From NCBI RefSeq assembly GCF_030409875.1, contig NZ_JAUFQR010000001.1, positions 186,001-250,000 on the forward strand: a DNA stretch of 64,000 nucleotides. The letters are read 5' to 3'. A model generated the notes under the pieces. It had not been told where the DNA came from, made no database searches, and saw only the letters and a list, made by a program, of their open reading frames with translations. Below are positions 15,139 through 61,426 of the stretch, piece by piece (the stretch's first letter is position 1; the number at the start of each line of letters is the position of its first letter). The position numbers were made by a program, and so were the translations under genes. The stretch is from Chryseobacterium tructae (GTDB lineage: Bacteria > Bacteroidota > Bacteroidia > Flavobacteriales > Weeksellaceae).

Positions 15139-18100
15139 TTAATTTTTTTCGACATTTATCTTAAAATTAACTTCATCTATTTCGATTTCGTTAAAATTTG
15201 AAAGTGAAGATACAATTTCTATTTTATTTGACAAGACTTCAGAAGAAATATATTCTTCATTTTTCTTAATATCTTCAATGAATGGTGAGTTTTCTTCAAT
15301 GGAGATATTAATTCTGTCTGTAAGCTCGAAATCTTTCTCTTTTCGCAGGTTCTGAATTCTGTTGATGAATTCTCTTGCGATTCCTTCAGATTTTAATTCA
15401 TCGGTTAACGTCAAATCTAGTGCCACAGTAGTTTTACCGTCGGAAGTTACCGTCCATCCAGGGATGTCTTTCGTTGAGATTTCCACATCATCAAGTGTGA
15501 TCTCATAGCCCTGAACATCTAGTTTTCCTTCTTTTTCCAGAGCAGCAATCTGTTCTGTGGTAAGATTGCTAATCTCAGCACCAACTACCTTCATGTCTTT
15601 CCTAATTTAGGACCTAGCGCTTTGAAGTTGGGTTTTATCTGTTTTACAATTAAGTGTGATGCTTCTTCAGCATTGATTAACTGTAGTTCTTTTACGTTTA
15701 CTTCCTGTTTGATCAGATCTGCAACAGCAAGAATTTGCTCTTCTGTTTTAGCATCCAATACAGGAACCAATACTTTTTGTAATGGCTGACGAACTTTTAC
15801 ATTCTCCTTCTTTCTTAAAGAGAATACCATACTCGTAATGTTCTGAGCTAGGTGTGTTTTCTCAACCAGATCCTGATCGATTAAACTTTCATCAGCAACA
15901 GGGAAGTCTGTTAAGTGTACAGATTCACAGTTTTCTTTACCTGTTACTTTATTCAGATCCTGATATAACTGATCCATAAAGAATGGAGCAATAGGAGCTG
16001 ATAATTTAGCAACGACTTCAAGACAAGTATATAAAGTCTGGTAAGCAGAGATCTTATCATCAGAATAATCTCCTTTCCAGAAACGTCTTCTGCATAATCT
16101 TACATACCAGTTACTCAAGTTATCATTTACAAATGTACTGATGGCTCTTGCTACTCTTGTTGGTTCGTAATCTTCATAAAAAGCTTTTACGTCTTTGATC
16201 AATAAGTTCAGCTCAGAAAGGATCCATCTGTCGATTTCAGGACGGTTTTCCACTTCTTTTTCTGAATAATTGAATCCATCAACATTCGCATATAAAGAGA
16301 AGAATGAATAGGTGTTGTACAGAGTTCCAAAGAATTTTCTTCTTACCTCGTCAATTCCTTCAATATCAAACTTCAGGTTTTCCCAAGGGTTTGCATTAGA
16401 AATCATATACCAACGGGTAGCATCCGGTCCGTACACAGAAAGTGTTTCAAACGGATCTACTGCATTTCCTAAACGTTTTGACATTTTTTGTCCGTTTTTA
16501 TCCAAAACAAGACCGTTACTCATTACATTTTTATAAGCAACAGAGTCAAAAACAGCAGTTCCAATCGCGTGAAGCGTATAGAACCATCCACGAGTCTGGT
16601 CAACACCTTCTGCGATGAAGTCAGCAGGGAATGCCTTGTTGTTGTCAATCATTTCCTTATTCTCGAAAGGATAGTGCAGCTGTGCATAAGGCATAGAACC
16701 TGAATCAAACCAAACATCGATCAAGTCGCTTTCGCGCTTCATTGCTTTCCCTGAATCGGAAACCAATACTACTTTATCCACTACATTTTTGTGAAGATCA
16801 ACCAATTCATAGTTGGATTCGGACATATTGCCTATTTCAAAACCTTTGAATGGGTTTTCAGTCATTACTCCTGCAGCAATCGATTTTTCGATTTCATTGT
16901 AAAGTTCTTCTACAGAACCGATGATCTTTTCTTCTTTCAGGTCATCTGTTCTCCAGATTGGCAATGGAATACCCCAATATCTTGAACGGGATAAGTTCCA
17001 GTCGTTTACATTTTCCAACCAGTTGGCAAAACGTCCTTCTCCGGTAGCTTTTGGTTTCCAGTTGATTTCTTTGTTCAGATTAACCAATCTGTCTTTTACA
17101 GCAGTCATCTTTACAAACCATGAATCCAACGGATAGTATAATACCGGCTTGTCAGTTCTCCAGCAGTGTGGATAGGAGTGAACATATTTCTCTACTTTGA
17201 AGGCTTTGTTCTCTGTTTTCAACAAGATCGCAAGCTCTACATCCCAAGACTTCTCAGGTGCAGTTCCCTCATCGTAATATTCATTTTTGATATATTTTCC
17301 TGAGAATACTTCAGGGACATTTTCTCCCTGAAGGAATTTACCTTGCAGATCTACCAATGGAATAAGATTGTCATTTTCATCCTTTATCAACATCGGTGGA
17401 ATCTCGGGCTGAGCCATTTTAGCAACTCTCGCATCATCAGCACCAAAAGTAGGAGCTGTGTGTACGATACCTGTACCATCCTCTGTCGTTACGAAATCTC
17501 CTAAGATCACTCTAAAAGCATTTTCAGGGTTATCGTTTGGCGTAAACCAAGGAACTAATTGCTCATATCTTGTATCAACAAGTTTTTCTCCAGTAAATTC
17601 TTTTAAAATTCTGAACGGAATTACCTTCGTTTCCTGCGTATAGTTGGCAAAATCCTCATCTGTACCTTCAGCATATTTTTTACCGAATACTTTAGGTAAA
17701 AGAACGCTGGCTAATACAACCGTTACCGGCTCAAATGTATATTGGTTAAATGTTTTAACAACAACATACTCAATGTCTCTACCAACTGTCAATGCTGTGT
17801 TGGAAGGCAACGTCCAAGGAGTTGTCGTCCATGCAAGGATATGTACATCTCCATCAACATCGTTGAATAAAGCAGATGAATCTTTTTTTACTTTAAATTG
17901 AGCGACAACCGTTGTATCTGACACATCACGATACGTTCCAGGCTGGTTCAATTCGTGAGAAGAAAGCCCTGTTCCTGCTTTTGGAGAGTAAGGTTGGATC
18001 GTATATCCTTTATACAACAAGCTTTTGTCGTATAATTGTTTCAACAACCACCAAACAGTTTCCATATATTTTGACTTGTACGTAATGTACGGATCATCAA

Positions 18101-18533
18101 GGTCTACCCAATATCCGATTTTCTCTGTAAGGTTATTCCATACATCGGTATAACGCATTACAGCTTCACGACAAGCTTTATTATAATCTTCAATAGAGAT
18201 TTTTTTGCCAATATCTTCCTTTGTAATTCCTAATTCTTTTTCTACACCTAGTTCCACAGGAAGACCATGCGTATCCCAGCCTGCTTTACGGAAAACCTGT
18301 TTCCCGTTTTGAGTCTGGTAACGGCAGAAAATATCCTTCAATGCTCTTGCCATTACGTGGTGAATTCCAGGCATACCATTTGCTGAAGGCGGACCTTCAT
18401 AAAAAACAAACTCAGGATTTCCCTGACGAATCTCAACACTCTTATTGAAAGTTTTATTTTGTTTCCAAAACTCCGCTACATTCTCTGCTACGTCAATAAG
18501 GTTGAGGTTTTTGTATTCTTTAAATTGGCTCAT
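15139..18533 (-). CDS. ileS: Isoleucine--tRNA ligase, one frame break near the C-terminus
   Basis: A class I synthetase of about 1131 aa when repaired. It has the HIGH-type site in NGMPGIHHVMARALKD, an editing domain including WTTTPWTLPSNTAL, and KMSKS in GQKMSKRLGNAVDP. At 15598-15600 one extra A on the coding strand joins LGPKLGK to DMKVVGAEISNL and the remaining 150-aa anticodon-binding tail. The gene is essential, so an under-called A run is the likely cause. Confidence 0.95.
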
Positions 18534-18568
18534 TGTAAATATCTCAATTCGTTGATTAATTAAGTCTG

Positions 18569-18576
18569 CAAATTTA
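18569..18576 (-). promoter_or_regulatory. Possible ileS -7 promoter element
   Basis: On the minus strand TAAATTTG lies 36 nt before the ileS ATG and matches the TAnnTTTG consensus. No convincing -33 element was found. Confidence 0.4.
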
Positions 18577-18722
18577 CTAAAATTTGTCGGTTTATAATAT
18601 ATGTTTTATGTAGGTAATTTCTATTAAAAACTTCAATCTCAGAAATATAAATAAAAAGTGGAATGAAAAGTGAATAAAGAAGGGTGGAAGAGTGGATTTA
18701 ATTCATGGTTTTGATGTGAATT

Positions 18723-18754
18723 TATGAAAAAAAATAAGCCACCCGGAGGTGGCT
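18723..18754 (-). terminator. Terminator of the toxin/immunity operon
   Basis: Seven-bp stem AGCCACC / GGTGGCT with a CGGA loop; on the minus strand it is followed by a run of T bases (complement of GAAAAAAAATA). It lies a few bases after the last immunity-like gene. Confidence 0.8.
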
Positions 18755-18759
18755 GTGAA

Positions 18760-19077
18760 TTATTCAAAGTCGCTAAGGCTTGGTATATCCGGCCATCTTC
18801 CTGCTTCGTATTCTTGAACATAGTAGTCAATGGATCTATTTGTTCCAAACACTATAATTTTACCAGTTTTACTTTCTACTAAGAATGGAGAGCAGCCTAT
18901 TAGCTTGGCTTTTTCAATTTTATCTTCTACAAATTTTTTTGAATTAAAATAAAATATCATGCCATATTCTTTTTGAATTGAGCGTTCCTCTGCAATAGTA
19001 AGTTCTATTTCCCATTTTTGACTTAATTTTTTTATATAGTCTTTTGCGGTTTCTATTACTTTTTGCTCCGTCAACAT
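18760..19077 (-). CDS. Imm35/YrhB-type immunity-like protein, copy 2
   Basis: A 105-aa cytosolic protein: an N-terminal helix (TEQKVIETAKDYIKKLSQKW), strands, the core CSPFLVESKTGKIIVFGTNR and a DYYVQEYEAGRWPDIPSL ending, which is the Imm35/YrhB pattern. Family members are found beside polymorphic toxins and probably block them. It follows a sister gene after a 36-nt gap and is the last gene before the terminator. Confidence 0.8.
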   Translation of the reverse strand: MLTEQKVIETAKDYIKKLSQKWEIELTIAEERSIQKEYGMIFYFNSKKFVEDKIEKAKLIGCSPFLVESKTGKIIVFGTNRSIDYYVQEYEAGRWPDIPSLSDFE

Positions 19078-19113
19078 GTAGGTTTTTATTTTAATACAAG
19101 ATTGGGTTTGATA

Positions 19114-19422
19114 TTAATTCTGGTTAGGATCCCAAACTCCATGAATGCTAGGTTTCCATGTGCCATCTTCATATCCATTTAAATAATACTCTACATCGTC
19201 TGATGTTCCAAACTGAATGACTATACCGGTGTCATTTCTTACAAGAAATGGGCCATTGCCTGCTAAGCGATGTTTTGTAGAGTCCTTCGCAACATAATCA
19301 TAAACATTGCCATAGCTTTTGTTAATGAATTCGTGAGGAATTTCAAGTTCAATATTTATTCTTTGCCCTATTTGCTTTATATACTTATTGGCTATTTCTA
19401 GCATTTTGTTGTCTGTTAACAT
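19114..19422 (-). CDS. Imm35/YrhB-type immunity-like protein, copy 1
   Basis: A 102-aa protein with the same layout as the next gene: helix DNKMLEIANKYIKQIGQRIN, core NGPFLVRNDTGIVIQFGTSD and YYLNGYEDGTWKPSIHG. Sequence identity with its sister is low, so they may protect against different toxins or variants. It starts six bases after the toxin-like gene, a normal toxin-immunity spacing. Confidence 0.8.
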   Translation of the reverse strand: MLTDNKMLEIANKYIKQIGQRINIELEIPHEFINKSYGNVYDYVAKDSTKHRLAGNGPFLVRNDTGIVIQFGTSDDVEYYLNGYEDGTWKPSIHGVWDPNQN

Positions 19423-19428
19423 ATTATT

Positions 19429-22044
19429 TTATTTTACTTTTAAATATTCTACAAAATCTGCCTTCTCAAATGTTTGCATAAGTCCTTTTTGTCCATTAAG
19501 AAGCATTAGTCTCTCATTTTTTTTAATAACATTGAAAACGTGGCCATGTTTAAATCCTTTTTTATAAATATACATTATACCGATTTCACCTTCGGCCATA
19601 TCAATACTCCTAATATCTTCAATTTTAACAGGTGAAGAAAAACTATTCTCAAATATTTGTTCTAAAACTTCAACATCTTGTCCATCGGAATGTAATGCTT
19701 GTGATATATTACCTGTTTCTAAATATTCTATTACTTTTTGAACAACATTAACACAATTGGAATCAGAAACCATAACCACTTTATTGTTAAGTATATAGTG
19801 GTTAAAATATGGTAATACATCATATATGTAATCAATTGCGTTTTCAGCATTGATTTCAGTTTCTTCAAGGACTTTTAATCCTGCTTTAAACTCCTCAACA
19901 GTAAGACTAATGCGAGGTGTGAGATTCTCTGCCATCCCCGCAAGTCTGCTAAACTCTTCTTCAAGTTTACCTACCTTGCCTCCTGCTTTTCTATAGATAT
20001 AATCTAAAAAAATATCAGTCCTTGCGGGTGACTTTCCTTGGAAAAGTAATTTTCCTTTATGAAGTACACCTATTTCTTTCGCAGCGTTCTCCACAAAAAG
20101 GACTCTCAGCTTCTCAAAATCAGAAGAATGCGTGATAGTCTTTTCAACACTGGCTTTTGAAAGAACTTTTAATCCATTTTTGGAATAATTCCTTAAAGGA
20201 AACGAATATAATGTATTTTCAATTAATTTCTCTAAACTTCTCTGCTGTGATGGAAATCGGGAATGGTATAGTATTTCTACGGTTGCATCTAAGGCTTTTT
20301 GTGCTTTTGGAAGCATACTTACCATGGCACTTGCTGTACCCTGAACCATATAAATATCATCCCATAACTCTAAAAGTTTCCTTCCCTGGGTGGTCATTGT
20401 AAGCTCATCTCTCAATTGGGCTTCGATGTAAAAATCTGAAAGAGCCAATCCAATATCTGCATAGGCTGCATATAAAGGTAATCCCGATACTCCCGATTCT
20501 ATAGTTGCAAGACTGGCGGATATAACGATGAGATCTGCAACCACACGAAGGCACCTTAATGCATCTTCAACGGCTTTCTTTTGGGCAATGTGATAAAGAA
20601 ATAACGCGGGAACTTCAGTATCCGTTTCAATGGTTTGAATTTTACCGGAAGGGGTTTTTGCCCTTTCATAGACTTTGAGATGCAGCATATCCAGTGGTCT
20701 GAATTCTCCATTTTCAATTTCATTTTCAGCTTCAATCTTCTTGGTTTTTAGATTCCAGACTTTTACATTGTTGATCAGCGTGACATTGTTGTCCCGATCT
20801 CCTTCCATAAAATATCCTGTAAGCTCACAATGCCTTTCTATGGTATCAGAATCTCTGCTTACTCCCAATGCGAAAAGAGAACCCCGTTGCTGGGGCTGAT
20901 GAGCATCATCCATTGCATGTTGTGCCTGCATGAATGCCGTTACGTAAATGACAAAGAGCTCTTTGTTTTCAAACATTTGCCCATGAGCAACCTGGTTGGT
21001 ATCGGAAATAATACCTTTTCCCATGTAAACACTTTCACCATCTAAAGAATGATAAATGTGAAGAATGAGCTTGGGATCATTTTTAATCTTTTTATAAACA
21101 AACTCTCCGGAAATTGCTGTAAGAATACGAATGGCATATCGGCTTTTGTCTCTGAAAGGTTCTGCTGCCAAAGCTGCAGCTTTACCTATGGAGTCTACAT
21201 CACGAAGCAATTGAGAATCATAATTGAGAAACTGTATAAAATGATCCCATAATAACTGATCTGAAAGTTTTTTTGCTTTTCCTTTATAATCTACACCGGT
21301 TAAAGCAAAATTGGGGAGCTGGTTATAGAAAAACATCAGATCATCAATGGAGGTAAGTCCTTTTCCTGCTTCTTCAAAACGTGAAATGAGAGCCACCTGT
21401 GCAACCTCTCTATGATATGGAAAAAGATAGGTGATGGCATCCATATAATCTTCAACATCACTAAGTCTGATTTGTATCGCATCAGGTGATTTAGATAAGT
21501 AACTTATGGTAGCTTCTACTTCATTTACATCGGTTTGGGTAGCTTCTCTATTATAGTCGCGATAAGGGATATTGATTGTGCAGGCTATTTTTCTTTCCGA
21601 AATTCCTATTTCAGTATGATGGGTATATTTTTTAGGATCAATATAGCCAGGGCTTACATTTACCCATACCTTATTATCCATGCGCTCTAAAAAAGAATTC
21701 TGAAATTGTTTTTCATCTATTTTAGGCTCTTGAATGATTAATTTCTCAATCATTTTAGTCTTCACTCTTACATTGTCAATTCTCGCAGGAGGAATTTCCT
21801 TCAGGTTTACCTTTTCTACTTCTTGAGAATAGTCTATAAAGTTTTTTCTTGCATCAAATAGATAGGAGTTGAAATCTGTTGAAGAAGCAAGTAATCTGAA
21901 AAGTTTTCCCTCATCTACCCAAAGATTTGTAAAAAAAGGTTCTATGGAGTTGGTGGCTATTTTTTCGCCTTTCATATCTGCCCATATTTTCCTACTTATG
22001 GCATCAAAGTCGTCCATTTTCTTTAAAGGGTCTTTAAAATTCAT
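19429..22044 (-). CDS. Large polymorphic toxin-like protein with C-terminal papain-fold (Tox-PL-like) domain
   Basis: An 871-aa protein with no signal peptide. Residues 1 to about 700 belong to no family I recognise; a helical stretch near 485-545 (VEDALRCLRVVADLIVISAS, then GVSGLPLYAAYADIGLALS) may be membrane-active. The last 110 residues contain DSNCVNVVQKVIEYL (Cys about 764), FKHGHVFNVIKKNE (His about 835) and LLNGQKG (Asn about 850). The order Cys, G-H-V-F-N-V, L-(D/N)-G-Q-x-G fits papain-fold glutamine deamidase/protease toxins, with Asn where many have Asp. Two immunity-like genes follow at once. Delivery route (type VI or other contractile system) is unknown. Confidence 0.72.
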   Translation of the reverse strand: MNFKDPLKKMDDFDAISRKIWADMKGEKIATNSIEPFFTNLWVDEGKLFRLLASSTDFNSYLFDARKNFIDYSQEVEKVNLKEIPPARIDNVRVKTKMIEKLIIQEPKIDEKQFQNSFLERMDNKVWVNVSPGYIDPKKYTHHTEIGISERKIACTINIPYRDYNREATQTDVNEVEATISYLSKSPDAIQIRLSDVEDYMDAITYLFPYHREVAQVALISRFEEAGKGLTSIDDLMFFYNQLPNFALTGVDYKGKAKKLSDQLLWDHFIQFLNYDSQLLRDVDSIGKAAALAAEPFRDKSRYAIRILTAISGEFVYKKIKNDPKLILHIYHSLDGESVYMGKGIISDTNQVAHGQMFENKELFVIYVTAFMQAQHAMDDAHQPQQRGSLFALGVSRDSDTIERHCELTGYFMEGDRDNNVTLINNVKVWNLKTKKIEAENEIENGEFRPLDMLHLKVYERAKTPSGKIQTIETDTEVPALFLYHIAQKKAVEDALRCLRVVADLIVISASLATIESGVSGLPLYAAYADIGLALSDFYIEAQLRDELTMTTQGRKLLELWDDIYMVQGTASAMVSMLPKAQKALDATVEILYHSRFPSQQRSLEKLIENTLYSFPLRNYSKNGLKVLSKASVEKTITHSSDFEKLRVLFVENAAKEIGVLHKGKLLFQGKSPARTDIFLDYIYRKAGGKVGKLEEEFSRLAGMAENLTPRISLTVEEFKAGLKVLEETEINAENAIDYIYDVLPYFNHYILNNKVVMVSDSNCVNVVQKVIEYLETGNISQALHSDGQDVEVLEQIFENSFSSPVKIEDIRSIDMAEGEIGIMYIYKKGFKHGHVFNVIKKNERLMLLNGQKGLMQTFEKADFVEYLKVK

Positions 22045-22331
22045 CTTTAATTTTTTTCATTAATACTACTTTTATGTTTTGGTTCTTGCTTGGCAGAGAA
22101 AAGGGGTTTATCTAAACTTCCCCTTTGATCTATAATGCAAATATCATTGTGGGAAGCGACAAAACTTGGCGTGTAATAAATAAATGATGGCTTGATGAAT
22201 GGAAAAGGATTAAGAAATGGGTTGGGAAAATCTACACGATTTGTGGGTGAAAATAAAATCTGTAAAAGCAAAATAGCATGATCATTGCTTGAAATCCCGT
22301 ATATTTAAGTAGAACTAAACCCAAATGCTGT

Positions 22332-24020
22332 ATGAAAGTATTCTCTAAACTGATGGTTATTGTTTTTTTCATCAATATCTTCATCGCCCAAGCCCAAAAT
22401 AACTATCCCCAAAACTATTTCAGAAATCCCCTGAATATTCCTATGCAACTTGCAGCCAATTTTGGAGCAGTAAGAACCAATCATTTTCACATGGGATTGG
22501 ATCTGAGGACGAACAGTCAGGAAAATTTATCGGTTGTAGCAGCAGCAGACGGTTATGTAAGCAGAATAAAAGTAGAACGTTATGGCTTTGGAAATGCAGT
22601 ATATATTACTCATCCAAATGGTTTTACAACAGTATATGCTCATTTGAATAAGTATTTTGATAAGCTTGATGAATATGTAAAAGAGAAGCAATACAAAGAT
22701 GAAAAATGGGAACAAGATATTGCTTTCCAACCGGGACAGTTTCCTGTAGCCAAAGGTCAGCTCATTGCATTGAGTGGAAATACAGGCGGTTCGGCAGGTC
22801 CTCACTTGCATTTTGAGATAAGAGATACCAAGACAGAAGAATGTCTTAATCCTTTGTTGTTTGGATTTAATATTCCGGATTCTGTGGCTCCTATCATCAG
22901 TGGATTGTATTGGTATGATCGCAGATTCAGTACCTATGAGCCCGGAGCGAATGGAATTGCAGTTAAAAAAGCAGGAAATACTTATACGGCCGACGTTGTG
23001 AAAGTCAATTCTCCCAAGATAAGTTTGGGAATTAAAGCGGTAGATAAGGCCAATCAAGGATTTAATTTAGGGATTTATAAAGCCGAATTATTGATGGATG
23101 GAAAGCTGATCTACGGATTTAGCATTGATAAAGTGAGTTATGATGATACCCGTTATCTGAATGGTTGTATAGATTACACCAAATTTATAAGAGATAAAGT
23201 GGGTATTCAGCATCTGTCTACGCTACCGGGAATGAAGTTATCTGATTACAGCAGTCCTAATCTTTCCGGCGTTATTAATCTACAAGATGAGGAAGTCCAC
23301 ACTATTGAAATTATTTTAAAAGATGTAAAAGGAAATACCAGCCGATTAACTACAAAAGTGCAGCTTGCTAAAACAGATAATGGCGTTTCTCCTTCTGCAA
23401 AAACTGTTTTGCCTAATCAGGGAAAAGTAATGACAACCGATAATGCAGAAATCATTTTTAGTAAAAATGCGATGTATGATGCTGTGAATTTTAATATGTA
23501 TGAAAAAAATAGCGGAGACGGAAATGCTGTATCCAATACCATTGTTTTACAGAATCCATACATACCGGTGCAGGATTATTATACTTTAAAGATAAAGCCG
23601 AACAGAAAACTCTCCAAAGAAGAGAAGGATAGAGTAGTTGTTTTATTTAATTATGGAAGTGATAAAGATGCCATAAAAGCAAAATGGAATGGTGATCAGG
23701 CAGAAGCACAGTTCAACAGATTAGGAAGTGCAGAACTTATATTAGATAATAGCCTGCCGTCTGTTTCTCCAGGTTGGAAGGAAGGAGCTGTTGTAGGCGG
23801 TAATACTTTACGTTTGAAAGGCAGTACGAAAATTGGTGATATTGTTTCATTTCGTGCAGAATTGGATGGGACATGGCTGCGATTTGCTCGTATAAAAAAT
23901 GATTTTGTCTATACTTTTGACGAGAAATGTCCAAAAGGTTCCGGTTCTCATACTTTGAAAGTGGCCACAGTCAATTCTGCGGGAAATACCAATACACAGA
24001 CGTTTACCTTTCAGAGATAA
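22332..24020 (+). CDS. Secreted M23-family metallopeptidase
   Basis: A 562-aa protein with a signal peptide (about 1-21, ending AQAQ). The LytM/M23 domain (about 45-170) has zinc ligands in NHFHMGLDLRT and GPHLHFEIRD. The C-terminal 380 residues form beta-rich, probably Ig-like domains. M23 enzymes cut peptidoglycan cross-bridges. It is divergent from the toxin gene and precedes the pigment cluster by 85 nt. Confidence 0.88.
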   Translation: MKVFSKLMVIVFFINIFIAQAQNNYPQNYFRNPLNIPMQLAANFGAVRTNHFHMGLDLRTNSQENLSVVAAADGYVSRIKVERYGFGNAVYITHPNGFTTVYAHLNKYFDKLDEYVKEKQYKDEKWEQDIAFQPGQFPVAKGQLIALSGNTGGSAGPHLHFEIRDTKTEECLNPLLFGFNIPDSVAPIISGLYWYDRRFSTYEPGANGIAVKKAGNTYTADVVKVNSPKISLGIKAVDKANQGFNLGIYKAELLMDGKLIYGFSIDKVSYDDTRYLNGCIDYTKFIRDKVGIQHLSTLPGMKLSDYSSPNLSGVINLQDEEVHTIEIILKDVKGNTSRLTTKVQLAKTDNGVSPSAKTVLPNQGKVMTTDNAEIIFSKNAMYDAVNFNMYEKNSGDGNAVSNTIVLQNPYIPVQDYYTLKIKPNRKLSKEEKDRVVVLFNYGSDKDAIKAKWNGDQAEAQFNRLGSAELILDNSLPSVSPGWKEGAVVGGNTLRLKGSTKIGDIVSFRAELDGTWLRFARIKNDFVYTFDEKCPKGSGSHTLKVATVNSAGNTNTQTFTFQR

Positions 24021-24105: not shown

Positions 24106-25397
24106 TTGGAATTTCATCCGTTCATCGAAAAATCGAATACACAGGAAATAAAGGCTTTTCAGGAAGAAAAACTTCATCAGCTTCTGGTTTATCTTGAAGG
24201 AAATTCACCTTTTTATCAAAGACTTTTTAAAGAGAAAAATATCAAGGTAGAAGAAATCCGGACATTGGAAGATTTGCAGAAGATTCCTACTACAACAAAG
24301 AATGATCTGCAGCAGCACAATCATGATTTTTTCTGTATTACATCGGATAAGATTGTAGATTACAGCACGACTTCCGGAACATTAGGAGATCCGGTAACTT
24401 TTGGGTTGTCTGATAATGATCTTGAAAGATTGGCCTATAATGAAGCGATATCCTTTGCTTGTGCCGGAATTCAGAAAGGAGATGTGGTACAGATGATTAC
24501 TACGATTGATAAACGTTTATGGCAGGTCTTGCTTATTTTTTAGGACTAAGAAAGATGGGAGCCAGTGTGGTCAGAATGGGGCCGGGAATTCCTGAACTGC
24601 AATGGGACTCTATTTTCAGATATAAACCGAAATACCTGATTACTGTTCCGTCATTTTTATTGAAAATGATCGATTATGCTGAAAAACGCGGTTTGGATTA
24701 TAAAAATTCAAGTGTTTATGGTGCGGTATGTATTGGTGAAAGTATCAAAAATCAGGACTTTACAGATAATATTCTTTCCCAGAAGATCAAAGAGAAATGG
24801 AATATAAAACTTTTTTCTACCTATGCTTCTACAGAAATGAGTACCGCTTTTACAGAGTGTGAGTTTCAGGTAGGAGGTCATCACCACCCTGAATTGATTA
24901 TTACAGAGATTCTGGATGATGAAGGAAATATTGTAAAAGAAGGTGAAAGTGGCGAGCTTACCATTACTACATTGGGAGTAGAAGCCATTCCTTTGTTGAG
25001 GTTTAAAACCGGAGATATTGTAAAAGCGCATTACGAGCCTTGTCAATGCGGCAGGAATACAATGCGGCTAGGCCCTGTGATCGGACGAAAACAACAGATG
25101 ATCAAATATAAAGGAACAACACTGTATCCACCTGCGATGAACGATATTCTGAACGATTTTAATAATATTCTGTGTTATCAGATTGTTATTCAGTCTAATG
25201 AAATAGGCTTAGATGAAATTATTATCAAGCTGAGTACTGAACAGGAAAATGAGAACTTTGTGAACGAAGTAAGGGATCATTTCCGTGCGAAGTTGAGGGT
25301 AAGCCCGAAGATTGAAATCATTGATTTTGATGTTTTATCTAAAACTGTTTTTAATCCAAATAGCAGAAAACCAATTACATTCATTGATTTAAGATAA
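24106..25397 (+). CDS. Phenylacetate-CoA ligase-like adenylating enzyme (flexirubin cluster), one frame break
   Basis: An adenylate-forming enzyme of about 430 aa. It has the ATP-binding loop TTSGTLGDPVTFG, an adenosine motif in FSTYASTEMSTAF, and LLRFKTGDIVKAHYEPC. The frame breaks at 24516-24518; one extra T gives DKRFMAGLAYFLGLRKMGAS. The presumed start is TTG at 24106 (MEFHPFIEKS). In flexirubin clusters this enzyme is thought to activate 4-coumarate as acyl-CoA or acyl-ACP primer, consistent with the tyrosine ammonia-lyase gene close by. Confidence 0.85.
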
Positions 25398-38188: not shown

Positions 38189-40844
38189 ATGAAAAAAATT
38201 CGACTTAGTGTTAAGCTATTGTTGTTTTGTTCTCTTTTCAGTGCAGGGGTTGTCTCTGCCCAAAAGTATGAACAGACAATTAAAGAGTATGTAAATTCTA
38301 CAGGATCATTTCAAAAAGCGAATCCGGAGTTAAAAAGCTTTAAAATCATCAATATAGACCCTTCAACAAGCTTAAGGGGAGATGTTGTGGGAATCCAGCA
38401 AACAGTTAATGGTATACCAGTTTTTGGTAGTTCTGCCAATGTTTTGATCAGAGATGGAAAGGTGTTGAGCTTTGCGGATACATTTATTAAAAAATATCCC
38501 ACTTCAATTAAAGGGAAGGAAAGTGGCAGAAAAGAAGCTTTGATTACGCAGACTATAAAAAAATTGAACGGGTTATCGGTTACCAAAAATATAGATGGTC
38601 AGGAAGAGCCGATAAAACCTAACACAGTTTATTTTGCAAAAGAAGATCAATTAACTCTTGGGTATCAATTTTATGTTGAAGAGAAAGGGACAAGTAATGT
38701 GTGGAATACGATTGTGAGCACAGAAGATGGTTCCATTTTATATCAGGAAAATACAACGCTTTCTTGTGATTTTCATCCTGAAGCTTATGAACGACCTGCC
38801 GGAGAATTTTTAACAGGTCTTAATATTGAACCTTCTGCTCTTCCTAATAATTTAGAAGTAGCAAACTTACAAAAGAATACTCCTCTTATTCTATCTCCTG
38901 ATAACGCTTCTTATAATGTATTTGCATTTCCTGTAGAAGCACCCTCATTTGGAAGCAGAACATTACTTACTAATCCTTGGGATCTGGCAGCTTCTCCTGA
39001 AGGCTGGCACTCAGATGGTACTACTAGCTATACAATAACAAGAGGAAATAATGCCTTTGCATATACGGATGAAGCTAATACTAATGTAGCACAATTCTCT
39101 CCTGATGGTGGGGCAAACAGAGTTTGATTTTCCTTTGGATATTACACAAATGCAGCAAACCTATACTTCGGCAGCGGTAACCAATTTATTTTATACAACC
39201 AATAAAATGCATGATGTATTTTATAAATTCGGATTTACAGAGTCGGCGAGAAACTATCAGAAAAATAATTTTGGAAACGGGGGAGCAGGTAATGACCCTG
39301 TTCTTGCTGAATCAAGAGACGGAAGCGGGCTTAATAATGCTAATTTTAATCCTGGTGCTGACGGAACAAGCGGTAGAATGCAAATGTTTCTTTTCGTGCC
39401 TAATAACGCAAGATATCTTTATTATAATTCGCCGTCAAACTATGTAACAAGAACCCCAGCTGCTGCTACGGCTAATTTTGGTCCGCAACTTATTGGAGGA
39501 ACTCCTGTTACCGGAGATCTGGCACTTCCAACACCTGCTGATGCTTGTACTGCAGTTGCAGCTGGAAGTCTTACTGGAAAAATCGCGGTATTAAATGCGG
39601 CAGGGCCAACAGGATGTGGTTTTGCTGTTAAAACCAAAAACCTTCAGAATGCAGGAGCAGTAGGGGTTATACAATATCATCCAAATAGTGATACACCAAT
39701 AGGGTTGGGAGGAGCAGATGCTACCATTACCATTCCTACCATTATGATAGGTAAAACAGAAGGTCTTTTCCTGGTTAATGAATTAACAAATGGGGTTGTT
39801 GGAAATGCTACATTAAAAACGGATGCTGTTTATAGAGATGCCAGTTTAGATAATGGAATTATAAGTCATGAATATGGACATGGAATTTCCAATCGTCTTA
39901 CCGGAACTGGAAGTTCTTGTTTATCCTATTTTTCATCTAATGAGCAGATGGGAGAAGGGTGGTCTGATTTCTTTGCCTTAATGATGACTACGAGACCAGG
40001 AGATGATGCCTCTATTGCTAGAGGAATAGGTACCTTTACTTCAGGAGAAGAAACAAACGGACTAGGAATAAGACCTGCAAAATACTCGCCTGATTTTACA
40101 GTAAATAATTTCACCTATGGAAGAACAAATGGAATGAAAGTGAATGCAAGCATATCCGGAATTGCGATTACGGTTCCTGATGTTCATAGTATTGGTTTTA
40201 TATGGGCTTCAATGCTTTGGGATCTTAACTGGAAATATGTAGAAAAATATGGGTATAGCAGCAATGTTTTAGATAATCCTAATAGTGGGAGTGCAAAAAT
40301 TTTGCAATTGGTAATGGATGCCCTTAAATTACAGCCATGTAACCCAACATTTGCACAAGGTAGAGACGCTATTTTAGCAGCAGACCAGGCTACAACAAAC
40401 GGGGAAAATAAATGTATGATCTGGAAAACATTTGCCAAAAGAGGACTTGGAGTAAACGCATCAGCCGGACAACTTAATGGTTTGGCAATTGGAGCCAATC
40501 AACCTTTACCTGAAATAAGTGATCAGGTAGAAGATTTTACAATTCCTGCTGAATGTGGATCATTGGCAGTGAGTGAAGCGGAAGAAAATTCTAAGGGAAT
40601 TTCTATCTATCCGAACCCGGTGAAAAATGAGTTTACGATAAAAACGCCTTCAGGAATGAATCTATCTGGAATTACAACTGTTTCTATTTATGATTTTACA
40701 GGAAAGCTTATTTCTCAGGAAAACATCAATCTTAACAGACAAACAACAGTTAATGCAAGCAATCTGATTAATGGAACTTATATTGTAAAGATTAAAAACA
40801 ATTCTTCAATCGATTATAGTCAGAAAATCATCGTTTCAAAATAG
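38189..40844 (+). CDS. Secreted M36 metalloprotease with T9SS sorting domain, copy 2, one frame break
   Basis: A paralogue of the preceding gene with the same domain order (signal peptide, FTP propeptide, catalytic domain with SHEYGHGISNRL, PA insert, sorting domain), about 885 aa when repaired. At 39123-39125 the frame breaks; two extra T bases give GGANRVFDFPLDI, aligning without gap to GGVTRAFDFPLDI of copy 1. The last 85 residues differ from copy 1 at only about two positions, while the catalytic parts differ much more. Confidence 0.9.
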
Positions 40845-49999: not shown

Positions 50000-50596
50000 A
50001 TGGAGTTAAAATTTTTTTTAAAAAAGCAAGTGTATATTTTTCTAGTTTTGTGCTTAGGTTTAATTAGTTGTAAGGCACAGCAGGTATTAACATTAAATAC
50101 CTCTGATTACAGTTCACCAACAAACTCATATTTTAAAGACCTAGATAATGAATTGAGCCCATACATAGGTACTTGGAAATCAATTTTTCAAAATAAAACA
50201 ATTATATTAAATATTACAAAAGAAGTAAAAAGACCTTATTCTGAGTGGGGAAAAAGTTTTTTTTCAGATGTTCTTATTGTAAAATATGAAATAAAAGATT
50301 CAAATGGGAATATTTTACAAACTACTTTAAATAATACATATCATCCTAATGCAGCCATTAAAAATCTAATATTAAGTTTAGGTACAAAAGCTGATGGACA
50401 AATTGATTTACTATATGCTGGTGGAAATTGTAGTGTAGGAATTGGAAATATTATTTTCAAGAAACTAAGTTCTACACAATTTTCCTGGGGATATTATCCT
50501 GGAACAACAACAAGAAATGACATTACTTGTCCTCCTGATAAAGACTACACAATCTATCTTCCGGAGACAGAGAATCTGATCTTTACAAAGCAGTAA
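50000..50596 (+). CDS. DUF6705 lipoprotein, tandem copy 1
   Basis: A 198-aa lipoprotein (GLISCKAQQ). It shows the family pattern: NSYFKDLDNELSPYIGTWKS, GGNCSVGIGNIIFKKL, QFSWGYYPGTTTRNDITCPP and the invariant end YTIYLPETENLIFTKQ. DUF6705 is an expanded Chryseobacterium family of unknown function, usually in tandem arrays. Its stop overlaps the next start by one base (TAATG). Confidence 0.88.
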   Translation: MELKFFLKKQVYIFLVLCLGLISCKAQQVLTLNTSDYSSPTNSYFKDLDNELSPYIGTWKSIFQNKTIILNITKEVKRPYSEWGKSFFSDVLIVKYEIKDSNGNILQTTLNNTYHPNAAIKNLILSLGTKADGQIDLLYAGGNCSVGIGNIIFKKLSSTQFSWGYYPGTTTRNDITCPPDKDYTIYLPETENLIFTKQ

Positions 50597-51161
50597 TGAG
50601 AAGTGGATGGTTTATATTGGTATTATTTACTGTGCTTTTTGTAAGGCACAGCAGGTATTACCTTTGAATAATTCTGCATCTAAATCTCCAACAAATTCAT
50701 ATTTTAAAGATCTAAATAATGAATTAGATTATTATACTGGAACTTGGGTGGGACATTTCAATAGTAAAACTATAAAGCTTGTTATTACTAAAGACATAAA
50801 AATTCCGTTTGAAATGTGGAAAAAGAATTTTTATACAGATCGATTATTTGTAAAATATGAAGTAAAGAGAGATAATGTAGTTTTAGAAAGTTCACTCAAT
50901 AAAGATTTTACAAATGATGTTGGACTTTCTATTGAAGGTTCAAAAACTAAAGATAATGAAGGTGGAATTACTTTAGTTTTTGCTGGCGGAAATTGTAGTG
51001 TAGGAATAGGAACTATTGTATTAAAGAAAATAAGTTCTGCACAGTTTTCCTGGGGGTATTATCCTGGGACAACTACCAGAAATGATAAAGATTGCCCACC
51101 TACCCAGGATTATACAATCTATCTTCCAGAGACAGAGAATCTGATCTTTACAAAACAGTAA
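50596..51161 (+). CDS. DUF6705 lipoprotein, tandem copy 2, one frame break
   Basis: About 188 aa when repaired. The ATG at 50596 opens MRSGWFILVLFTVLF, and one extra T in the run at 50636-50640 continues to CKAQQ, giving the same lipobox as the neighbouring copies. Without repair only a start at 50607 (MVYIGIIYCAFCKAQQ) is in frame. The body contains NSYFKDLNNELDYYTGTWVG and FAGGNCSVGIGTIVLKKI. Confidence 0.85.
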
Positions 51162-51721
51162 TGAGAAGTAAATTGGTAATATTTGGTTTGTTGGTTGTGT
51201 TTTCTTGTAAGGCACAAGAAATACATCCATTAAATACTTCGGCACTAGATGTTCCAGCAGGTTCATATTTTAAAGATTCAAATAACGAATTAGATTCTTT
51301 TATAGGAAGATGGCAAGGCAATTTTCAAGAAAAAAATATTACGTTACAAATATTTAAGCAAGTAAAAGTTCCAATAGAAAGATTTGGAAAACCGTTTTAT
51401 AGAGATCAAATTTTTGTAAAATATGAGGTGAAAAAAGGTAATACTGTATTGGAAAGCTCAATGAATAAAGACTTCACAAATAATATTGGACTTTCCATAA
51501 AAGGTTCGAAAATTCAAGATAATAGCATTACCCTGGTATTTTCAGGAGGTAATTGTAGCGTGGGAATAGGAATTATAGCCCTAAAGAAAATTAATACTAC
51601 CCAATTTTCTTGGGGGTATTATCCTGGGACAACAACAACAAATGATAAAGATTGCCCTCCGAATAGAGATTATACAATCTATCTTCCAGAGACAGAGAAT
51701 CTGATCTTTACAAAGCAGTAA
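51161..51721 (+). CDS. DUF6705 lipoprotein, tandem copy 3
   Basis: A 186-aa lipoprotein starting MRSKLVIFGLLVVFSCKAQE, with SYFKDSNNELDSFIGRWQGN, FSGGNCSVGIGIIALKKI and the invariant YTIYLPETENLIFTKQ end. It is joined to copy 2 by a TAATG overlap. Units repeat about every 560-565 bp. Confidence 0.88.
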   Translation: MRSKLVIFGLLVVFSCKAQEIHPLNTSALDVPAGSYFKDSNNELDSFIGRWQGNFQEKNITLQIFKQVKVPIERFGKPFYRDQIFVKYEVKKGNTVLESSMNKDFTNNIGLSIKGSKIQDNSITLVFSGGNCSVGIGIIALKKINTTQFSWGYYPGTTTTNDKDCPPNRDYTIYLPETENLIFTKQ

Positions 51722-58515: not shown

Positions 58516-61426
58516 ATGAAAAAGTTTTTTATTTCTGTTTCGGTTTTCTGTATGCTTAATGCTATGGCTCAGAAATTCGATACTCAAAAACTGACGGATG
58601 CTCAGGGTTATACTTATGAAACGGTAAAGAATGACCAGGCAGGAGTAAGGGTTTATACCCTGAAAAATGGATTAAAGGTTTATCTGGCCAGAAATGAAGA
58701 TGCACCCAGAATCCAGACCTATATCCCGGTAAGAACAGGATCTAATAATGATCCAAGTGATAATACAGGACTTGCTCATTACTTGGAACATATGGTTTTC
58801 AAAGGAACTTCCCATTTAGGAACTCAGGATTGGGCGAAGGAAAAAGCTTTGCTACAACAAATTTCCGACCTTTATGAACAACATAAGGCAGAAAAAGATC
58901 CGGCAAAGAAAAAGGAACTTTACAAAAAAATCGATGAGGTTTCTCAAGAAGCATCAAAATTTGCGATTGCCAATGAATATGATAAAGCGATTTCTTCATT
59001 GGGAGCTACAGGAACCAATGCTCATACATGGCTGGATGAAACGGTTTACAAAAACAATATCCCATCCAATGAACTGGAAAAATGGTTGAAAGTTGAAAAA
59101 GAACGTTTCTCAGAATTGGTACTTCGTCTTTTCCATACTGAATTGGAAGCAGTATATGAAGAATACAACAGAGCACAGGATAACGACGGCCGTTTGGTAA
59201 ATTATGCTTTGATGGAAGCTCTTTTCCCAAAACACCCGAACGGACAGCAAACTACTATTGGTACTTCTGAACACCTGAAGAGTCCATCAATGATAGCGAT
59301 TCATAAGTATTTGATACCTATTATGTGCCTAATAACATGGCAGTAGTCTTGGTTGGAGATATTGATTATGACAAAACTATAAAATTAGTTGATCAGTATT
59401 TCGGAGCATTCAAGTACAAAGAACTTCCTATGAAGAAGATGGTTACAGAGGAACCTATGACCCAGATTGTTTCCCGAACAGTAAAAAGCCCATCTACTCC
59501 AAGAATGACGATGGCTTGGAGAACAGACTCTTATGGAAGCCAGGAAGCTAGATTAGCAGATGTTGTTGCAGAAATTTTGAGCAACAGAGGAGATGCCGGA
59601 TTAATTGACCTTAATATCAATCAAAAGCAGAAAACGTTAGGAGCTGGAGCCTATGAATCACCATTCAAAATGTATGGAACATTCGCGTTAGTGGTAACTC
59701 CTAAGGATGGACAAAGTTTTGATGAGGCTAAAAAGCTATTGCTTGATCAGCTTGATCTTGTTAAAAAGGGACAGTTCCCAGACTGGATGCTGAAAGCTAT
59801 CATCAATGATAAAAAGGTTCAGCGCATGAAAGGTTGGGAAACTGCTGACGGTTTGGCTACTGAACTTTATGATTCTTATATCAAAGGCAGAACCTGGCAG
59901 CAGGAACTGGACGAGATCAATCAATATGAAAAGATTACTAAGGCTGATGTAGTGAAGTTTGCGAATGACTTCTTTAAAAATAACTATGTAGTGGTTTACA
60001 AAGAGAAAGGAGTGAATGATAAGCTTGTTCGTGTAGAGAACCCGGGAATTACTCCTATTAAATTGAACAGAGAAGCTCAGTCTCCTTTCCTTAAAGACAT
60101 TTAAATACTAAGGTTACTGAAATCAAACCTGAGTTTATCGATTATAAAACAGCGATTCAGACTTCAAAGGTAAAAGACAAGACGGTAAGCTTTGTAAAAA
60201 ATAAATACAATGAGATTGCCCAGGTAAGCTATGTTTTCCCTTTCGGAACAGATCATGATAAGGAGCTTTCGTTAGCAGGAACTCTTTTCGAATACCTTGG
60301 AACGGATAAATATACTCCGGAACAATTGAAAGAAGAATTCTATAAGCTAGGAATTTCTTACAGTTTCAGAACTTCTAATGATCAAACGACTGTTACTTTA
60401 TCAGGACTTGAAAGTAATATGAAGAAAGGAGTGGAGTTAATGAACCATTGGATGACCAACGTAAAAGCAGATAAAGCTATTTACAGCCAAACTGTAAAAA
60501 CAATTCTTGAAGCGAGAGAAGTTGCTAAAAAGGATAAAGTGAGAATTATGGGAGCCCTTTCCAATTATGCAAAATATGGGAAAGAATCAAGAATGACGGA
60601 TGTTATTTCTAAAGCTCGTCTTGAAAGCATTGATGCTGCAGAATTAATGAAAAAGGTGAAAACACTGAATCAATATCCTTATCAGGTATTGCTTTATGGG
60701 CAAGATCAGGCAGGTATGGAGAGCGCGATAAAACCTTATATCACGAATACAAGTCTACAGCCGGCAAAAGCTAAGGAATATACGGAACCTGCAACAACAG
60801 GGAAGGTATATTTCACAAATTATGACATGGTACAGATGGAAATGGCTAAAGTAGCGAAAGCAAGCCCTGTAAACCTAGACAACTTCGGAAAAGCGAATGT
60901 TTTCAATGAATATTTCGGAAGAGGATTATCTTCTATCGTTTTCCAGGAAATCAGAGAGAGCAAGTCTTTAGCTTACTCTGCGTATGTTTCTTACGCCAAC
61001 GCTTCAGAGAAAGGGCATGCCAACTATATTACCAATTATATTGGAACACAGTCTAACAAACTTCCTTTAGCTGTAACTGCAATGAGCGAACTAATGGCTG
61101 AGCTGCCACAGATCCCAACACAGTTTGAAAATGCAAGAGGTTCTGCATTGAAACAAATTGCTTCTAACAGAATCAATAGAACTAATATCTTCTTCAGCCA
61201 GTTAGCCCTTAAAAAATTAGGTGTTGATTATGACCTGAGAAAAGATACCTATGCTGAGATTCAAGGATTGACATTGCCTCAGCTGACAGGATTTTATAAT
61301 ACAGAAGTGAAACCCGTACAATACAATACCGCAATTATCGGTAAGAAAGAAAATCTAAATATGGAGTCTATCAATAAGATGGGTGAGTTCCAGGAAGTAT
61401 CTCTTGAAGAAATCTTCGGGTACTAA
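58516..61426 (+). CDS. Secreted M16-family zinc peptidase (two-domain), two frame breaks
   Basis: About 970 aa when repaired, with a signal peptide (about 1-18, ending NAMAQ). The inverted zinc motif HYLEHMVFKG (H-x-x-E-H) and downstream Glu region LEAVYEEYNR mark the active N-terminal half; the second half carries RGLSSIVFQEIRESKSLAYS, typical of the inactive partner domain. Frame breaks at 59310-59312 and 60100-60102 are each repaired by one T (restoring YFDTYYVPNNMAVV and LKDILNTKVTEIK). M16 enzymes degrade peptides. It has no evident pigment role. Confidence 0.92.

Follow-up and report, generated by a model that had tools for sequence, protein, structure and literature searches.

Several described systems resemble, each in a different part, the locus examined here. 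Tox-PL1 toxins are recognized by conserved residues in the order NC-H-DxQ (PMC3482391), two immunity proteins serve one toxin in the case of the Bxa/MuF toxins of Bacteroidales prophages (PMC11699363), gut Bacteroidales carry the orphan immunity arrays known as rAID (PMC12247911), and type 10 secretion is a lysis-based release of Tc toxin (PMC10847048); the descriptions are those found in the parts of these sources drawn on here. Our analysis concerns a three-gene locus in a stretch of 64,000 nucleotides (nt) of Chryseobacterium tructae, hereafter the window (NZ_JAUFQR010000001.1, positions 186,001-250,000, forward strand; assembly GCF_030409875.1), whose genome, coded G000, comprises 5.6 Mb in three contigs. 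The locus very probably encodes a polymorphic toxin for use between bacteria, together with an array of immunity genes, in which a carrier stem is joined to a Tox-PL1-type tip and followed by a cognate (imm1) and an orphan (imm2) immunity gene, the tip being swapped as part of a cassette. Judged from sequence, the module appears to belong to a known kind, its seemingly new features being the stem, the coding of cognate and orphan genes by their position, and the tie to a large protein for which the working name TLFRF was taken from its N-terminal letters.

All three genes lie on the reverse strand. The toxin gene (19429..22044) encodes 871 amino acids (aa), of which residues 1-690 form the conserved carrier half or stem (19975..22044), unassigned in fold and function, and residues 691-871 the C-terminal tip (19429..19974), a papain-like toxin domain. 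After 6 nt follows imm1 (19114..19422, 102 aa), and after a further 36 nt imm2 (18760..19077, 105 aa). The recomputed spacing, the open reading frames (ORFs) and the re-read motif positions agree with those claimed in an earlier note on this DNA. The note had also placed one terminator behind both immunity genes, and a hairpin scan did reveal a terminator-like hairpin at 18754-18737 on the same strand, just 3' of imm2. Four such sites were found within 18500-22400 as compared to 2.4 expected from shuffling, a count so close to expectation that the placement after imm2 is the sole persuasive point. The toxin has 41 homologues, and every one with a named source originates from Chryseobacterium.

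The exchange of tips behind a constant stem was revealed by a sample of 173 genomes of the genus. The stem profile matched 40 of them, with a match to the stem body in 38 (G037 and G059 hold tail fragments only) and a near-full stem in 23. In nearly all full-length homologues the stem shows approximately 55-100% identity per 50-aa block, and the remainder of the protein is swapped. At least three kinds of tip are borne by the stem, namely two papain-like types (A and B) and a HExxH metallopeptidase type (C), which sharpens the previous description of a 700-residue N-terminal part; a protein whose N-terminal half is conserved and whose C-terminal toxin domain is exchanged is organized as a polymorphic toxin. 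In a tree of the stems from 22 loci, 8 changes of tip type are required, as compared to 8.1 for shuffled labels, and the window and locus L007 are sisters (100/100), yet their tips differ. Furthermore, 14 short ORFs of less than 360 aa, matching only the stem end and/or the tip, occur as standalone tip cassettes in nine loci of relatives; none was seen within the window. The gene ileS adjoins 21/23 near-full-stem loci, the exceptions being those of G031 and G051. At the same site in G059 (L074) the toxin is cut to a 230-aa remnant and three Imm35-family genes are kept; it is possible that immunity was retained there after disarmament.

The first immunity gene varies together with the tip. Across all 23 near-full-stem loci, the gene next downstream of the toxin is a member of the imm1 family where the tip is of type A (10/10) and of the imm2 family where it is of type B (12/12), and is unrelated at the tip-C locus (1/1). 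Judged by position and distance alone, a tip-specific immunity gene lies directly behind the toxin in 23/23 loci. When L012 (tip C) and L006 (interrupted toxin ORF) were dropped, the distances in the remaining 21 loci correlated strongly between tip and first immunity protein (r=0.92), as compared to 0.02 between tip and stem and 0.04 between first immunity protein and stem; within types the correlation was 0.82 for tip A (nine loci) and 0.90 for tip B (12 loci). Thirteen loci have an immunity-family gene in second place as well; among these, r was -0.09 between tip and second gene and 0.91 between tip and first. Well-supported branches gave four independent pairs, in all of which the first gene tracks the tip (4/4; p 0.125, the pairs being too few for 0.05), and the second shows no tendency relative to the tip. 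Since the first gene matches the tip and the second does not, imm1 is the probable cognate immunity gene of the window's tip and imm2 appears to be an orphan. Behind the fixed stem, the tip changes together with the first immunity gene, the two forming a single cassette.

The two immunity genes of the window are themselves homologous (42% identity, or 38% as read from an alignment), and two or more genes of this family were found in 15/23 loci. The imm2 protein shares 90% identity with the third-position product of L082. Its identity to the first-position products of the tip-B loci L005, L007 and L070, which are probably cognate because of their position, is 87, 78 and 77%, respectively. The nearest relatives of imm2 would therefore include the antidotes of tip-B toxins, and this comparison, in particular the 87% identity, bears out the idea of a second gene that protects against further toxin variants. 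Regarding family assignment, Imm35 (PF15567) scored 22.2 bits on imm2, below the cut-off of 27.5, and imm1 gave no match in the family library. Likeness to Imm35 is nevertheless evident in the wider immunity family, 18/32 members of which match at E<=0.01 (best 9.5e-7), although the family differs in falling into two subfamilies split by tip type. As in the rAID arrays, to the extent that the source portrays them, the orphan gene is related to cognate ones and would guard against neighbours' tips; in contrast to them, the window's orphan occupies a fixed site next to ileS with a live toxin gene in front of it, and no recombinase was noticed by eye among the ORFs of the neighbourhood (PMC12247911).

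Concerning the tip, the motifs SNCVNVV (762-768), GHVFNVI (834-840) and LLNGQKG (848-854) contain the catalytic-signature residues C764, H835, N850 and Q852. In an alignment of 33/41 homologues, from which six with a metallopeptidase tip and two incomplete ones were excluded, N763, C764, H835 and Q852 are invariant (33/33), and hence the motifs are not due to chance. At position 850 the same alignment contains Asp in 18, Glu in eight and Asn in seven sequences; the Asn that had been considered odd at this third catalytic position is therefore not unusual here. The window's tip carries the NC-H-DxQ signature, with N850 as the third residue, and shares with Tox-PL1 the C-terminal position and the Imm35-type gene behind it, as described in the portion of the source used (PMC3482391). 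However, PF15644 (Gln_amidase) gave 12.9 bits, under its curated cut-off of 24.1, and matched five of 29 relatives at E<=0.5 (best 0.0049), so the tip may be said to work like Tox-PL1 and is not a certified member; the stem, moreover, falls outside the published trafficking types. A fold search with the modelled tip returned papain-like or related enzymes as best matches, at modest scores, and so did not produce the outcome (no papain fold) that the earlier note had named as refuting. Taken together with the tip swap, the Imm35 family matches and the coupling of tip and first gene, the signature supports the previous reading, in which a polymorphic toxin ends in a papain-like tip and is accompanied by Imm35-type immunity genes, and the tip is probably a papain-like enzyme of Tox-PL1 type, presumably acting as a protease or a deamidase.

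No credible match to the stem, and no published trafficking domain, was found in Pfam and NCBIfam (E<=1) or PHROGs (0.01), so the claim that about 700 N-terminal residues lack a familiar trafficking domain stands for the first 690. Its structure model was poor (predicted local distance difference test, pLDDT, mostly <50), and a fold search returned only helical chance matches, which given the quality of the model supports no conclusion. The toxin sequence had nothing credible in PDB and no match in plasmid records, and PADLOC recognized 0/6 proteins. As in the Bxa/MuF toxins, going by the source's account, a conserved N-terminal half is combined with varied toxin tips and with immunity genes behind them, but the window's stem, which has no match in Pfam, is not of the MuF type and belongs to no PHROGs phage family (PMC11699363). 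The stem may thus represent an uncatalogued trafficking module. Titles and abstract starts of the open-licence literature contained no description of the stem or TLFRF, which is weak evidence of novelty for families without a searchable name. According to the mechanism that we propose, the stem would bring the toxin to its delivery route and the tip (residues ~691-871) would use Cys764-His835-Asn850 to act on a cytosolic protein of a rival bacterium, by modification or cleavage. A cytosolic target is suggested because neither immunity protein starts with a signal-like sequence, as judged by eye. Binding of imm1 to the tip would protect the producer and its kin, and imm2 would protect against the type B tips of neighbours.

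TLFRF, a protein of about 1,200-1,500 aa (typically ~1,250), emerged from the neighbourhoods of distant stems and of the two close stems located away from ileS (G031, G051). In 15/46 distinct loci the stem gene follows TLFRF on the same strand at a distance of no more than three genes, the other 31, including the window's, showing no such link; two of the 15 were collected via TLFRF, and thus 13/44 is the fair figure. The TLFRF profile matched 141/173 genomes of the genus, 50/395 genomes of the order and 8/108 genera. It was present in 38/38 stem-body genomes as compared to 103/135 others (Fisher p 1.4e-4), and in 23/23 with near-full stems as compared to 118/150 others (p 0.006), relatedness being uncontrolled in both comparisons; the tail-fragment-only genomes are divided, G037 with TLFRF and G059 without it. 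TLFRF had no match in Pfam, NCBIfam, PADLOC, PHROGs, PDB or phage records. A homologue (P0151) bears the source label 'MACPF domain-containing', to which Pfam gave no backing.

In a survey of 20 TLFRF loci from the top of the score list, 18 contained a downstream gene of 600-860 aa followed by one of 88-184 aa, at times with a fibre-like gene of ~500 aa or a 168-aa gene in between; as exceptions, L121 lacked cargo and L123 had two short ORFs. A second cargo family shares its own, different N-terminus, for which profile comparison showed no kinship with the window's stem, and some of its members end in toxin domains over the Pfam cut-off (Tox-MPTase4 in L113 and L122, WHH nuclease in L104); the Tox-MPTase4 cargo of the window's own genome scored 45.4 bits (cut-off 25). 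Upstream of TLFRF and in the same direction, a patatin gene was found in 16/20 loci and an M15 peptidase gene in 14/20. Searches with the M15 protein yielded phage endolysins in PHROGs and, in PDB, the phage L-alanyl-D-glutamate peptidase 2vo9 (E 5e-24) and ChiX (5opz, E 1.6e-4). The order M15-patatin-TLFRF-small gene-stem toxin was seen in two stem loci (L062, L066), the upstream DNA being too short to judge in most other stem-linked loci. With this phage-type endolysin gene, related to ChiX and read in the same direction, many TLFRF loci resemble type 10 secretion as the consulted part of the source presents it, but Pfam found no TcA, TcB or TcC domain in the toxin, TLFRF or the scanned cargo proteins, and no M15 gene lies at the window's toxin locus (PMC10847048).

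TLFRF loci are also present in the window's own genome. One (L090/L091, C3:383306-397663) comprises an M15 endolysin, a patatin, leucine-rich and fibre-like genes, TLFRF, a fibre gene in two ORFs, a 750-aa Tox-MPTase4 toxin, a 96-aa PepSY-like gene and a WYL regulator. A second (L092, C3:513388-520714) is split into several ORFs, followed by a 617-aa gene and a 162-aa HExxH ORF, and next to this broken locus lies a run of large uncharacterized genes (L093, C3:525691-539447) of 707, 354, 1133, 884, 452 and 448 aa.

Other explanations of the module and of its delivery were also considered. The stable place beside ileS would fit a cysteine peptidase with a housekeeping or stress-related role, accompanied by inhibitor genes, rather than a weapon, but the repeated swapping of the tip for another enzyme class together with its neighbour gene, and the presence of a near-full stem in only 23/173 genomes, make this highly improbable. 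Both immunity genes might alternatively serve the window's toxin and protect fully only in conjunction, as Bsi and BAH do for Bxa, a precedent described in the part of the source drawn on (PMC11699363); their adjacency, shared terminator and homology are in line with this. It is nonetheless an improbable reading, in view of the second gene not tracking the tip as the first does, and of imm2 being nearest to first-position genes of tip-B loci and third-position genes of other tip-A loci. A polymorphic toxin with one cognate and one orphan antidote remains our preferred interpretation.

With respect to delivery, the toxin may be an ordinary cargo effector of the type VI secretion system (T6SS) of subtype iii (T6SSiii), with the stem as an unrecognized loading domain and the TLFRF tie either coincidental or reflecting a T6SS part. 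The window's genome does carry TssC (PF17541), TssN and TssD, with VgrG- and PAAR-like genes noted by eye (the classical sheath model PF05943, the wrong one for Bacteroidota, had found none), TssC is present in 170/173 genomes of the genus, T6SSiii is nearly ubiquitous in Chryseobacterium according to the part of the source used (PMC10781749), and neither stem nor TLFRF proteins have an obvious signal peptide by eye. However, no T6SS marker domain was found in the toxin by Pfam or NCBIfam, the ORFs around it in the window include no T6SS gene as judged by eye, and three genomes that are ~99% complete (G029, G076, G153) retain TLFRF with no match to TssC, TssN or TssD. In G029 (L065), a stem-family toxin and an Imm35-like gene lie directly behind TLFRF (stem match at E 9.3e-9 to a profile built without it). 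Type VI delivery is therefore a serious possibility, yet one to which we give less than even weight. Sheath genes of an extracellular contractile injection system (eCIS) lie side by side. Delivery by such a system or a phage-tail-like particle gains something from the phage-sheath matches (PF04984) in 9/26 genomes tested, six of them over the cut-off, several side by side in G055, G051 and G135, and one at 40 bits in G029, where a contractile particle is thus possible. We consider it quite unlikely, as no such sheath was detected in the window's genome, in 14 more of the 23 near-full-stem carriers or in G076 and G153, although sheaths below the sensitivity of PF04984 could be missed. Type IX secretion features of the toxin were not seen either: NCBIfam gave no sorting-domain match (E<=1), and by eye, without a signal predictor, the N-terminus does not look signal-like. 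It appears that TLFRF occurs in every stem carrier and a contractile machine does not, a correlation that favours a TLFRF-based carrier. We thus tentatively prefer delivery by such a carrier acting in trans over type VI, with a confidence just short of even; a type-VI-independent carrier for stem toxins is plausible on sequence grounds. Going further, and with more doubt, there may exist in Flavobacteriales an undescribed delivery system without type VI, consisting of a TLFRF carrier, often with fibre-like proteins, that would be released via the adjacent M15 endolysin and patatin-like lipase, carry polymorphic toxins that are interchangeable and come from two or more unrelated stem families, the window's among them, and also serve stem toxins encoded far away, such as the window's.

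A few other observations concern the window itself. Its ileS is present as two ORFs (15139-15594 and 15591-18533; 980 + 151 aa), as compared to one ORF of ~1,130 aa in most relatives. More genes that seem interrupted by eye are located at 24106-25397, 38189-40844 and 58516-61426, and tssC and TLFRF in the same genome are similarly affected, suggesting uncorrected small indels in the assembly. Three similar tandem lipoprotein-like genes with a common GGNCSVGIG motif occupy 50000-51721. Finally, the region 24106-57634 contains ammonia-lyase-like, ketosynthase, acyltransferase and ABC-export genes, a set which we take to resemble a flexirubin/aryl-polyene pigment cluster.

Overall, the locus amounts to a clean natural experiment, in which the stem stays constant at a fixed place in the chromosome and pairs of tip and antidote are exchanged behind it. 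Because cognate and orphan immunity genes can be told apart there by their position, direct tests of cross-protection among named relatives become possible. TLFRF is found in 141/173 genomes of the genus and also where genes for type VI secretion are absent, and its link to the stem points towards a delivery route by which many anonymous toxins of Flavobacteriales could be explained.
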